Shown in pieces: positions 1,346 through 8,227 of a stretch of DNA of 64,000 nt; within the stretch, counting starts at the first letter, position 1, and each line of letters starts with the position of its first letter. The position numbers were made by a program, and so were the translations under genes. This DNA comes from Chrysoperla carnea (taxonomy: Eukaryota; Arthropoda; Insecta; Neuroptera; Chrysopidae): positions 37,702,935-37,766,934 of the forward strand of contig NC_058338.1 of NCBI RefSeq assembly GCF_905475395.1. Reading direction: 5' to 3'. The notes beneath the pieces are model-generated. The model had not been told where the DNA came from. It made no database searches and saw only the letters and a list, made by a program, of their open reading frames with translations.

Positions 1346-4300
1346 CGGTGTTACAATCCGTAAGTCGATTTGTCCTCTCCCATCAGTTAACGCCTGGCAG
1401 TCAGAAACATTAAAACAGCCACATGCTGATTGTGTAGTAGATGGCATTGTTGTCGTTGTAGGGGCCACCGTAGTTGTCGTGGTTGTGGGAGCTACAGTCG
1501 TAGTTGTTGTTGGAGCTACAGTTGTGGTCGTTGTGGGAGGTACGGTCGTAGTAGTTGTGGGAGCTACGGTTGTAGTCGTTGTCGTAGTGGGAGCTGCAGT
1601 TGTAGTCGTAGTCGTTGTTGGAGCTACAGTTGTAGTCGTTGTTGTAGTAGGAGCTGCTGTGGTAGTCGTTGTCGTTGTGGGAGCAACAGTTGTAGTCGTT
1701 GTCGTTGTGGGAGCAACAGTTGTAGTCGTTGTCGTTGTGGGAGCAACAGTTGTAGTCGTTGTCGTTGTAGGAGCTACAGTTGTAGTCGTTGTGGGAGCTA
1801 CGGTCGTCGTCGTTGTGGGAGCTACAGTTGTAGTCGTTGTGGGAGCCGCAGTTGTAGTCGTTGTGGGAGCTACGGTCGTCGTTGTTGTTGGAGCCACAGT
1901 TGTAGTTGTTGTGGGAGCTTCAGTTGGGGGAGATGGGCTAGCTAAACAACAATATATTGTTCCAGGTGGACATTGCTGTTGGAATAAGTTTCGCTATATT
2001 AGTGTCAGTATTATTTCATTTGAATTAAGCCTTTATTGTTAGTTAATAATAAGCATTTCAAATGAATAATGAATAATGAATGCGTAAATGTTAAGTCGAT
2101 TATTTTCGCAAAAGAAAAAATGGTAATAGTTTAATGTTGTGATGATCGCTTTGGCAAAGGAAAATATTTGTCAGTTACTATATGCCATTATGAATATTTA
2201 GGGAAAAAATAATTGCTGGTTAAATATTATAATAATCCTTTTGGCAAAGAAAAACAATTTTGCATGCTTGAATATAATTATGAATAATTTGGAAAGTATA
2301 ATAATAAAAGTGCTTGTGAATAAAAGTGAGGGTTCTTCACCTTGAGGCTCAGAATAGCAGGTACAAAAATAAACATTTTTTTGATGTAGCGATTTAAGCA
2401 CAGAAGATATTTTTTATTTTAAGTAATACATTGTAGTTTTTTGAATTGAAAGTTGATGTAAATATGGCGAGAAATTTCTTGCATTTGAAATCCTTGGAGA
2501 TGGTATATCTATTTTCTCTGTGGGATATTACCAAAAATAAGAAAAAATTTTTATTTTGAAAAGTTACTAAGAGTAGGAAAAATTTTTAAGATAGCAGCTG
2601 TCGGAAAACAACTTCTTTTCTAATTTATAAAAAACTAGCGGCCCCGACGGACGTTGTCCCGTAAAAACGTAACTCCAATTCATGAATACCTATACTACGT
2701 TTAGCCTGTCCGCTAAACCCATCCCGCTAAACCCCAATTTAACTCCTATTTTTTGGAGTGGCCTGACCTTCGACCTTTGGCCTGACCTTTGATAGTAGAG
2801 CTCGCTGCGCTCGCATATGGCTCTAATAAATGCCTATTGACAATACCTGAATACTATTAAAAATACATAGTACACATAGTATACATAATGTGATATGATT
2901 TATATGCGCTCCCACCATTTAATGAAATTTCATTTTTTTGGTACGGAGCCCTCAAAAACAGTTGTAGTGGACCGAATGGTAAATCTAAACCATTCTCCAA
3001 TCCCCTTGAACTCACACAAAAAATTTCATCGAAATCGGTCCAGCCGTCTAGGAGGAGTTCAGTCACATACAGACACACACAAGAAATATATATATTAAGA
3101 TATTAAGAGTTATAAATAGTTGAATTTTTTTGCGATATTTTGTGCATTAGTTTGCAAAATTTTGTTGCAAGAAAAACGTTAAAGAAAAAAGAGTAGCCTA
3201 ATAGTGAATACCGATTCGCTTATTTCTAATTGTTTTAATTTTGAAATGGTGAAACGATAAAATATTCTTAAATTAACGAATTTAACTAGCCTAAATAGAT
3301 GTTCTGAAAACTTCTGGGTGGTGGAACTACTTAAGTTCCTGAAAGCAATAGCGAATGCATGTGAAAATAGCTTTGAATACTTATGCATAATAGTTTAAAA
3401 TTTTAGTAAATCTTACGGGTGTGACAATCCTGAAATCAATAACACCACTTCCATCAGGCAAGGTATTACAAGATGGTATATTGAAACAACCACAGCCTGG
3501 AGGGAATGTAGCAGGAGCAGCTGTTGTTGTAGTTGTAGTTGTAGGAGCTTCAGTTGTTGTGGTTGTTGTGGGAGCCTCAGTTGTTGTTGTAGTTGTTGTA
3601 GGCGCAGGAGTAGTTGTTGTAGGAGCAGGAGTAGTTGTTGTAGGAGCAGCAGTTGTTGTTGTTGTCGTTGTTGTGGTGGGCTGTGCTTGTGGGCAGCAAT
3701 ACAACATGCCATATGGACATGTCATCTGGTTAAAAAATGTTAATTAATTACTATTACAAGACGACTACCTGATAAGGACTTTTGTTTGCAGGATCTGTCA
3801 CAGTGGGGAGGAGGAGAAGACTCATGCCTTGAAGAGCTGGGCTTACTTGAGTCAACCATTCTTTGATGGCCTCTCCGACCTAAAGTTTGTTGAAGTCATA
3901 GCTGTTCCTAAACAGCTTCAAATGATTCATGGAGTAGTGGCCAGTGACGGGTCAACCCTTTTTTCGATATCACAACGGACTTTATGGTCTAAGTATGTCT
4001 CACCCCAAGACAGTCACTCTAACCTAACCTTACCTAAAGGATTTCGTGTTTCCGTTCAAGTTATGTTGGTCAAGAAATTCATGTTACGCACAGGTTCAAT
4101 ACAAAATACTTTTTTTAATAACATATTTTTTTTCTACATACTTAACTATGTATTAATAAAATTTGTAATTGATGAAACAGGTTAAAATATCAATAAAAAT
4201 GCATGTTATTTTTTCGGTGTTCATCAATTGTGTTTACGTTGCGACAATCCCGCTATGACCATCATTTTCCTTTTAATAACTATGTAATAAAATATATATA

Positions 4301-7300: not shown

Positions 7301-8227
7301 CATGATTCAATCGACCTGACTAACAAATTTTCTTTTTTGTGTACAGTATTATAAAGAGTGGGTCAGGTATTATTATTAATTAGGTATTTAACGTAATATT
7401 TTCCCGTGATCCAATCGAGCTGAAACTTTACAGGTAGACTCGTGGTGACGATAAAAATGATCTAAAAAATTTTCGTTTAAAAAAATTTATAGTACCGGAG
7501 AATTTAGAAAGAGAATAAAAAAAAAAATTAAAATTTTAACATGTTACGTCACAAAGCTTTTGACCCACCTACCCCTTGACACACAATGTCACATTCGGTC
7601 GACCCCCTTCCCCCTCCTCTTAAAGTGTGATGTAATTAATGAATGGTCCATAATTAGTCTTCAAAATTTTGTAAACGGACTTTCAAAGAATATTTTGAGA
7701 ATTTTGGAATTTAGGTAAGTCTTAATTTTTAATTTTTGTATTGCTTTTCATGATAATGGTCTTACTGGAATTTTTCCATCATCTCGAAAAATGTAAATTT
7801 TACGTAAAAATTACTAGAGAACTTTTTGACGTAGAAAAAATCGTATTCGAAATATTTCTCCTACTGACACAGCCTTATGTAATGCACTAACATATCCTTT
7901 TTGAAACAACACTATTAAAATAAATAATGTCGAACATATTTGTAATTGTGTTTTTACTGACACTCTATTAATAAATTTGATTTAATTTTAAATCGAAAAA
8001 AATTTAAAAATAATTGATAAAAACAAAGCGAACAAGTACATACCCTTTTCACATATTTGACTAATTTTTTGTAAAATTGTTTGTAGAATATTATTATTTG
8101 CATTTTTAAAATTCGCAAATGATATCTCCACACGATTTTTAATAACAAATTCCTCGGATAGTTGACATGATTGTAAAAACCAATATAAAAACACAACGAC
8201 ACAAATTGATGAAACTTTTAACTTCAT
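1346..8227 (-). CDS. multi-clip, Thr-rich serine protease homologue, 5' part (partial, continues off left edge)
   Basis: Secreted, mucin-like clip-domain protein. I place four exons: 8044-8227 (signal peptide beginning [17 protein letters not shown]; ends in phase 1), 5597-5736, 3417-3725 and 1346-1975. The lengths 184+140, 309 and 630 keep one frame, giving 421 codons so far. The clip pattern is CxCF-x(4)-C ... CPxGxxYCC. Clip 1 spans exons 2/3 (CGCFAVSSC then CPYGMLYCC), clip 2 spans exons 3/4 (CGCFNIPSC then CPPGTIYCC), and clip 3 starts at the end of exon 4 ([19 protein letters not shown]). Thr/Pro/Ala linkers of the form PTTTTTVA separate the clips and look suited to O-glycosylation. By analogy with the downstream SPH genes a C-terminal protease-like domain is expected beyond position 1; this is inference. 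Exon 2 is the least typical: its CCPQSS block follows a shortened first half. A purely mucin-like clip protein without a protease domain remains possible. Confidence 0.72.
1479..1915 (-). repeat. coding minisatellite for Thr-rich linker
   Basis: Within the exon at 1346-1975, short units reading PTTTTTVA or [10 protein letters not shown] are repeated about 16 times. Unit length alternates between roughly 24 and 30 bases, all multiples of three. The third base of Thr codons varies (ACA/ACT/ACG/ACC), so the tract is not a pure slippage product. Plus-strand open frames rich in Val or in Cys/Ser/Arg over this tract are antisense shadows. Confidence 0.8.
2632..3105 (+). mobile_element. SINE/RTE-like retroelement fragment
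   Basis: Starts with ACTAGCGGCCCCGACGGACG and ends in a tail containing CGGTCCAGCCGTCTAGGAGG, ACACACACAAG and ATATATATTAAGATATTAAG. A related head is at 45888-46145: both have ACTAG near the start, a block of GCTAAACCC or GCTAAGCCC, and GCTCG(C/T)TGCGCTCG. The 3' end resembles the tails of insect RTE-type elements and the SINEs they mobilise. It lies in the intron between SPH exons 3 and 4. Confidence 0.5.
3515..3680 (-). repeat. second Thr-rich coding minisatellite
   Basis: Inside the exon at 3417-3725. Units such as [16 protein letters not shown] and [10 protein letters not shown] form the linker between clips 1 and 2. It is shorter and more heterogeneous than the tract at 1479-1915. Confidence 0.75.
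3789..4030 (+). mobile_element. LINE 3' fragment (zinc-knuckle-like C-terminus)
   Basis: The plus strand encodes [20 protein letters not shown] followed by [13 protein letters not shown]. This matches the longer LINE remnant at 38515-38680 (CHSEEDEETMYHLL, RRWAHLSQHFLDYLSALKSV) with about 12 codons missing. The insertion interrupts sequence that is otherwise shared with the duplicate unit at 4890-4930, which marks it as an insert. It is antisense to the SPH gene and lies in an intron. Confidence 0.65.
4292..4407. repeat. (TA)n microsatellite
   Basis: About 115 bases of nearly pure TA with one TG interruption near 4350. Ile/Tyr-repeat open frames on both strands here are artefacts of this tract. 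Confidence 0.97.
4753..4863 (-). pseudogene. decayed duplicate of the clip/Thr-linker exon
   Basis: Keeps the acceptor (CCAG followed by ATGGCATGTTCATATGG) and reads [15 protein letters not shown], against [15 protein letters not shown] in the working exon at 3417-3725. After that the frame differs: the Thr tract is read as Asn and Cys runs and ends at TAA at 4753-4755 after 36 codons. No first half of the next clip is recovered. If spliced in phase 0 it would end the protein after the first clip. It is more likely a dead copy left by the local tandem duplication, but use as an alternative last exon is not excluded. Confidence 0.7.
5766..5860 (+). repeat. dispersed repeat family A, fragment
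   Basis: Begins ACACCATGTATGTAGGAAAT and carries GGTATACTAAGTCCCAAGTT and the ATATTGGTGCTACGAAC block, matching the first 90 bases of the full copies. Confidence 0.6.
5961..6030 (+). repeat. tRNA-like SINE head (degenerate)
   Basis: CCCTAGTAGCTCAGTTGGTT fits an RNA polymerase III A box and tRNA D-arm. GGCTCCGAAGTTTCGATAG about 40 bases later is a weak B-box match. No cloverleaf with an acceptor stem closes, so this is a tRNA-derived SINE remnant or a broken tRNA rather than a working tRNA gene. Confidence 0.4.

Follow-up and report, generated by a model that had tools for sequence, protein, structure and literature searches.

Multi-clip protease homologs

Clip-domain serine protease homologs (SPHs) of the CLIPA type are non-catalytic cofactors; PPAF-II, which acts in phenoloxidase activation, is an example (PMC2375007). 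Masquerade carries five clips (bee cSPH41, Ostrinia OfucSPH9; PMC1761132, PMC10036332), along with Ser/Thr-rich linkers and a dead protease-like domain, and bee cSPH39 is a multi-clip SPH with Thr-rich, low-complexity stretches and four clips (PMC1761132). This article examines gene A, a predicted gene of the green lacewing Chrysoperla carnea that resembles these proteins in architecture. Nine clips are modelled in gene A, against four or five in masquerade. The gene begins in the window (the whole stretch of 64,000 nucleotides analysed, C2:37702935-37766934, position 1 being C2:37702935), lies on the minus strand and extends beyond the left edge; flanking DNA was included in the model.

Gene A probably encodes a secreted, dead SPH of the CLIPA type with a nine-clip stalk, which would have grown from a two-clip ancestor by the addition of symmetric units. 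Like PPAF-II and other CLIPA SPHs, it combines a clip of the form CxC...C / C...CC with a replaced active Ser and an intron in the Cys3-Cys4 loop of the clip. No larger clip array turned up in the literature searches. The cited papers give up to five clips (PMC1761132, PMC10036332); a full-text search for five to ten clip domains, spelled out in words and thus not covering numerals or subscription journals, found two papers for five and none for six to ten. Searches combining clip with intron, phase, exon duplication, multi-clip or mucin-like listed no such array, most subscription journals being outside their scope.

A parallel exists outside the clip proteins. In nebulin-type repeats the exon units are also out of register with the domains, and the unit of duplication is equally ambiguous (PMC1553488). 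Gene A differs in having one cysteine-rich domain per intron and a relative with fewer units at the same locus. With this adjoining two-clip paralog, and with relic half-exons, it offers a test case for the growth of repeats that have introns inside the domain.

Exon structure of gene A

The model comprises 14 exons and 1710 amino acids, with zero internal stops and GT-AG borders at 13/13 introns. To an initial frame of 12 exons and 1427 amino acids, exons 8 and 9 were added from a scan for half-clip acceptors. Positions without prefix are those of the window; exons with C2 coordinates lie to its left.

8290..8295, minus strand: TATAAA, 68 bases before the gene A ATG; gene B, the two-clip paralog, has an aligned TATAAA 70 bases before its own ATG
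8044..8227, minus strand: exon 1, start codon and hydrophobic N-terminus, ending in phase 1; homologous to gene B exon 1
5597..5736, minus strand: exon 2 (phase 1 to 0), short linker, then the opening half of clip 1 (CGCFAVSSC...GIPT)
3417..3725, minus strand: exon 3 (phase 0-0), closing half of clip 1 and opening half of clip 2, separated by a 66-aa linker with 58% Thr
1346..1975, minus strand: exon 4 (phase 0-0), closing half of clip 2 and opening half of clip 3, separated by a 174-aa linker with 61% Thr
C2:37701876-37701301, 37701203-37700178 and 37700089-37699811, minus strand: exons 5-7
C2:37699070-37698804, 37698616-37698035 and 37697957-37697709, minus strand: exons 8-10
C2:37695947-37695661, 37695584-37695345, 37694581-37694383 and 37693557-37693393, minus strand: exons 11-14

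Exons 3-10 make up a symmetric-exon repeat array, in the sense of consecutive exons that have equal start and end phases and encode repeats. Each is in phase 0-0 and runs from the second half of one clip through a linker to the first half of the next. Together with exons 2 and 11, which supply the outermost half-clips, they form nine six-cysteine clips. An earlier note on this DNA had described 3417-3725 and 1346-1975 as phase-0 exons of this composition, and both are open and do have the motifs and phases that it gave: exon 3 opens with CPYGMLYCC and exon 4 with CPPGTIYCC, directly after AG and in phase 0, and both close in phase 0 with CGCF...RIVTP, followed by the donors GTAAGA (exon 3) and GTAAAT (exon 4). 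The note's expectation of three or more clips is surpassed by the nine of the model, in which these two exons belong to the array of eight. The other six half-clip/linker/half-clip exons lie left of the window (C2:37697709-37701876), with the protease-like exons beyond, to 37693393. The note had further listed three joins as tests of its model; 5597-3725 and 3417-1975 are in phase 0, but 8044-5736 is in phase 1 (G/TG) and cuts no recognisable clip. The sequence CEKVQKCC at this exon 1/2 join was considered as a lone half-clip and dropped; it is given no weight because gene B has no cysteines at the matching place.

At the intronic stop rate of 0.066 per codon, the chance of an open frame is 6e-7, 2e-6, 7e-11 and 2e-6 for exons 4, 5, 6 and 9, respectively, and 9e-4 to 4e-3 for exons 3, 7, 8 and 10; for exons 3 and 4 this estimate is biased, as their repeats are GC-richer than the introns. 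The acceptor scan used a regular expression (AG, then phase-0 C-x5-7-CC in the first codons, plus a pyrimidine tract). Over 113,934 bp it returned 15 sites on the minus strand, all of them inside clip genes A-D or next to them; the plus strand gave 0.

Two kinds of simple repeat occur in the gene. The linker of exon 4 is a minisatellite (window 1449-1926, minus strand), and its length is likely to vary between individuals. The (TA)n tracts in introns 2/3 (window ~4270-4410) and 4/5 (immediately beyond the left edge of the window) match each other at up to 96% and are plain microsatellite.

Reconstituted clip domains

All nine joined clips have six cysteines with Cys5 and Cys6 adjacent, and lie N-terminal to the protease-like domain. 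That serial joining of the exons rebuilds whole clips, as the earlier note had it, is borne out by leave-one-out hidden Markov models (HMMs), built from the other clips of the locus. In 9/9 cases joining gives the higher score: 21.9 to 68.4 bits for the joined clips, 12.0 to 53.7 bits for the exon-order control, a mild one that keeps the first half-clip, adds a ten-residue stand-in linker and, for clip 1, is without a second half. The nine also beat all 200 cysteine-fixed shuffles and all 200 full shuffles. The clip of the neighbouring gene D is weak in the same test (14.3 bits joined, 13.4 bits for the control).

The Pfam model CLIP_1 (PF18322) matches two of the nine joined clips. Taken singly, exon 3 reaches E 0.076, and exons 2 and 4 have no CLIP_1 match; after joining, clip 3 (E 4e-6) is above the cut-off and clip 2 (E 4.9e-5) just below. 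An NCBIfam search gave no matches.

The predicted protein

Gene A is best classified as a clip-domain SPH of the CLIPA/PPAF-II type. Its C-terminus is a trypsin-like domain (PF00089, 9e-45), the closest solved relative of which is PPAF-II (2b9l, 5e-51). The catalytic His and Asp are retained (TVAH, NDLA), and the active Ser is replaced; because the Ser motif reads GDGGAP, the domain should be catalytically inactive. Ser, Thr and Pro together make up 40-77% of the linkers in exons 2-9 and 23% in exon 10, and the linkers are probably O-glycosylated. The whole protein contains 33 N-glycosylation sequons. Judged by eye, its hydrophobic N-terminus suggests secretion. The nine clips on their Thr/Ser/Pro-rich linkers would then form a long stalk ahead of the protease-like domain.

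The gene cluster and its relic half-exons

Five clustered genes, A to E, have the same clip split. Gene B (C2:37685125-37688912; 502 aa) has two clips and one symmetric exon; it consists of exon types 1, 2, 3, 11, 12, 13 and 14, so that the outer exons common to both genes stand in one series. Between genes A and B, the ratio of nonsynonymous to synonymous change (dN/dS) is 0.14 in the protease-like part (exons 11-14), 0.26 in exon 3 and 0.55 in exons 1-2, with dS values of 1.0, 1.0 and 0.76, respectively. The parts common to both genes are therefore constrained, and the split between the genes is old. In a C-terminal tree of 11 rows, A+B (99/99), D+E (97/97) and A-E (80/94) group together.

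In line with the earlier note, the neighbours are cut at the same point as gene A, after RIVTP in gene C (40067) and after RVVTP in genes D (23894) and E (about 16829). The relevant exons and the two relics are:

40067..40242, minus strand: gene C, linker followed by a first half-clip that closes with RIVTP, then a donor in phase 0
38796..39220, minus strand: gene C, Thr/Ala/Pro linker between a second half-clip and the beginning of the protease-like domain
23894..23962, minus strand: gene D, first half-clip CSCYPIAYC...RVVTP, phase 0 donor gtgaga
4763..4889, minus strand: relic of the start of exon 3 with its acceptor, in gene A intron 2, 78% identical to 3751-3638
39457..39526, minus strand: relic or alternative copy of the start of the gene C second half-clip exon, 90% identical over 70 bp to 39245-39176

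In gene E, split after RVVTP (about 16829, minus strand), the second half-clip is without its CC and the donor is gtttga. The clip (window about 16730-16900, minus strand) looks broken; the protease-like exons look intact.

Pieces of intron plus exon start do get duplicated at this locus. The frame of the exon 3 relic (acceptor-scan site 4863) closes soon after the half-clip, and further intron blocks are duplicated in step with it. The gene C copy (acceptor-scan site 39501) retains its acceptor and has an in-frame stop soon after the half-clip; spliced in, it would yield a clip-only protein.

How the array may have grown

The proposed history starts from an ancestral clip with an intron inside it, in phase 0 after RIVTP. 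Any exon lying between two such clips would finish one clip and begin the next. Because such a unit is symmetric (phase 0-0), copies could be added or lost without a frame shift, and every new junction would make a whole clip. From a two-clip ancestor like gene B, this could have led to the array of eight symmetric exons.

Several points weigh against this history or the model beneath it. The reverse course, with clips lost in gene B, may have been taken instead. The bodies of the four short clip introns have no detectable homology to each other; either the duplications are therefore old or the introns have turned over. Seven of the nine joined clips are without a CLIP_1 match, two of these having weak sub-threshold matches to DUF5346. 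Constraint was measured on the exons common to genes A and B, a set that does not include exons 4-10. Some exons may be decaying or skipped, given the divergent half-clips of exons 7-10 and the weak-looking donors of exons 8 (gtattt) and 9 (gtactt). Finally, the whole exon series is a prediction from genomic DNA.

A different growth step has a little under an even chance. The array may have grown by copying of whole clips with their internal intron, through unequal recombination in the repetitive linkers, and the half/linker/half exons would be a by-product; the rest of the history is unaffected by this. Long internal repeats in the exon 4 linker suit such recombination. The two halves of one clip co-vary (r 0.54, p 0.0002 for 11 clips of genes A and B; r 0.47, p 0.009 for the nine of gene A), more than the two halves of one exon do (r 0.12, p 0.31 for the eight exons of gene A; r 0.31, p 0.06 with gene B exon 3), although this co-variation may be structural rather than historical. 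For eight clips, the clip as unit gives p 0.026 with BLOSUM distances and 0.004 with p-distance, and four offset controls give p 0.23 to 0.44. In the six interior units, BLOSUM distances again favour the clip (clip p 0.027, exon p 0.28), but p-distance reverses the order (clip r 0.15, p 0.21; exon r 0.44, p 0.08). Both relics contain intron sequence ahead of the acceptor, which speaks against the copying of clips, as do introns 5/6 and 6/7: an end-to-end homology between them, seen by BLAST, was dropped, since after removal of the splice signals it stands at z 0.8 against shuffles. Most tests thus lean to the clip with its intron as the duplicated unit, and one reverses. Of the earlier proposal that the protein was lengthened by exon duplication, the modular anatomy stands; the exon is one candidate for the duplicated unit, as copying of clip plus intron would give the same anatomy.

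Two further readings concern the gene itself. It is unlikely that gene A, though real, is decaying, with exons 7-10 as remnants that are skipped in the mature mRNA to leave fewer clips. The divergent half-clips of these exons, the weak-looking donors of exons 8 and 9 and the relic half-exons close by would fit; all eight exons have nevertheless retained six cysteines per junction, open frames and GT-AG sites. A two-gene reading, with an SPH to the left and the clip/mucin part in the window as a gene of its own, is highly improbable. In its favour, intron 4/5 is 2.4 kb long, but the final half-clip of exon 4 needs exon 5, the phase-0 initial half-clip of exon 5 needs exon 4, and the joined frame is without a stop. 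Gene B, moreover, carries exon types 1-3 and 11-14 in one series.

Possible functions

By family, the chances are about even that gene A acts as a non-catalytic cofactor or scaffold of a clip-protease system of the melanisation type. The nine-clip stalk suggests multivalent binding. Alternatively, it might serve in the venom of the larva: C. carnea venom contains 11 NVCLIPs, clip plus S1-type proteins of unknown function (PMC12758981), to which gene A may or may not belong.

It is improbable that the eight phase 0-0 exons serve as a splicing cassette, from which any subset could be skipped with each new junction still a whole, chimeric clip, tuned by tissue (haemolymph or venom gland). If true, up to 256 stalk lengths and clip combinations could come from one gene. 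Alternative splicing is reported for 74 of 281 C. carnea venom genes (PMC12758981), which is not evidence for such a cassette.

Clip splits elsewhere in the genome

Whole-genome searches covered 559.5 Mb in 337 sequences. CLIP_1 has five matches genome-wide, and all break off at position 37-41 of 52, as an intron just after that point would predict. The split position was examined at four of these five loci. In three related genes (L014, L015, L016) the intron, read by eye, interrupts the Arg of DIR in phase 2, some four residues ahead of the split in the cluster: the loop (Cys3-Cys4) is the same, whereas position and phase differ. Each of the three has one CLIP_1 match, against the phase 0 split and nine modelled clips of gene A. 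The donor of L015 is poor (gtccgc). At L017 the intron follows VRNS, and the downstream half was not located. PF12032, another clip model, behaves differently, as 17/18 of its matches cover the domain in full within a single open frame.

Searching the genome with exon 7 preceded by the end of exon 6 found only the gene A locus (2 matches) and no second array; short halves would be missed. A half-clip pattern scan of 12 loci (L014-L025) turned up no convincing case; the cysteine pattern used does not recover the clips detected there by Pfam.

Two PPAF-II-like genes lie 6.3 kb apart (C1:91077974-91078810 and C1:91084293-91085129). They have equal search scores and are therefore either very recent duplicates or an assembly duplication.

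Relation to masquerade

A gene at about C6:33311594-33320859, read from open frames, has five clips. The first is whole, a single open frame holds clips 2-4 complete, and the fifth seems to be split. The gene is classed as masquerade-like because its clip number, Thr-rich linkers and GDGGGP motif agree with bee cSPH41; no Drosophila sequence was compared. The earlier note's comparison of gene A with masquerade-type proteins is apt by architecture, but the C6 gene has a different clip spacing and those three whole clips in one frame. In the C-terminal tree it falls outside A-E, on a long branch. Because of its five-clip layout and the A-E grouping, the evidence leans against orthology of gene A to masquerade, and the lacewing array looks like a separate route to a multi-clip protein.

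To the left of the cluster, on the plus strand from C2:37649737 onward, a 189-codon open frame (L031) is rich in CC/CxC repeats (CCSGQKCCEKECDCNC...) and resembles a multi-unit metal-binding protein.

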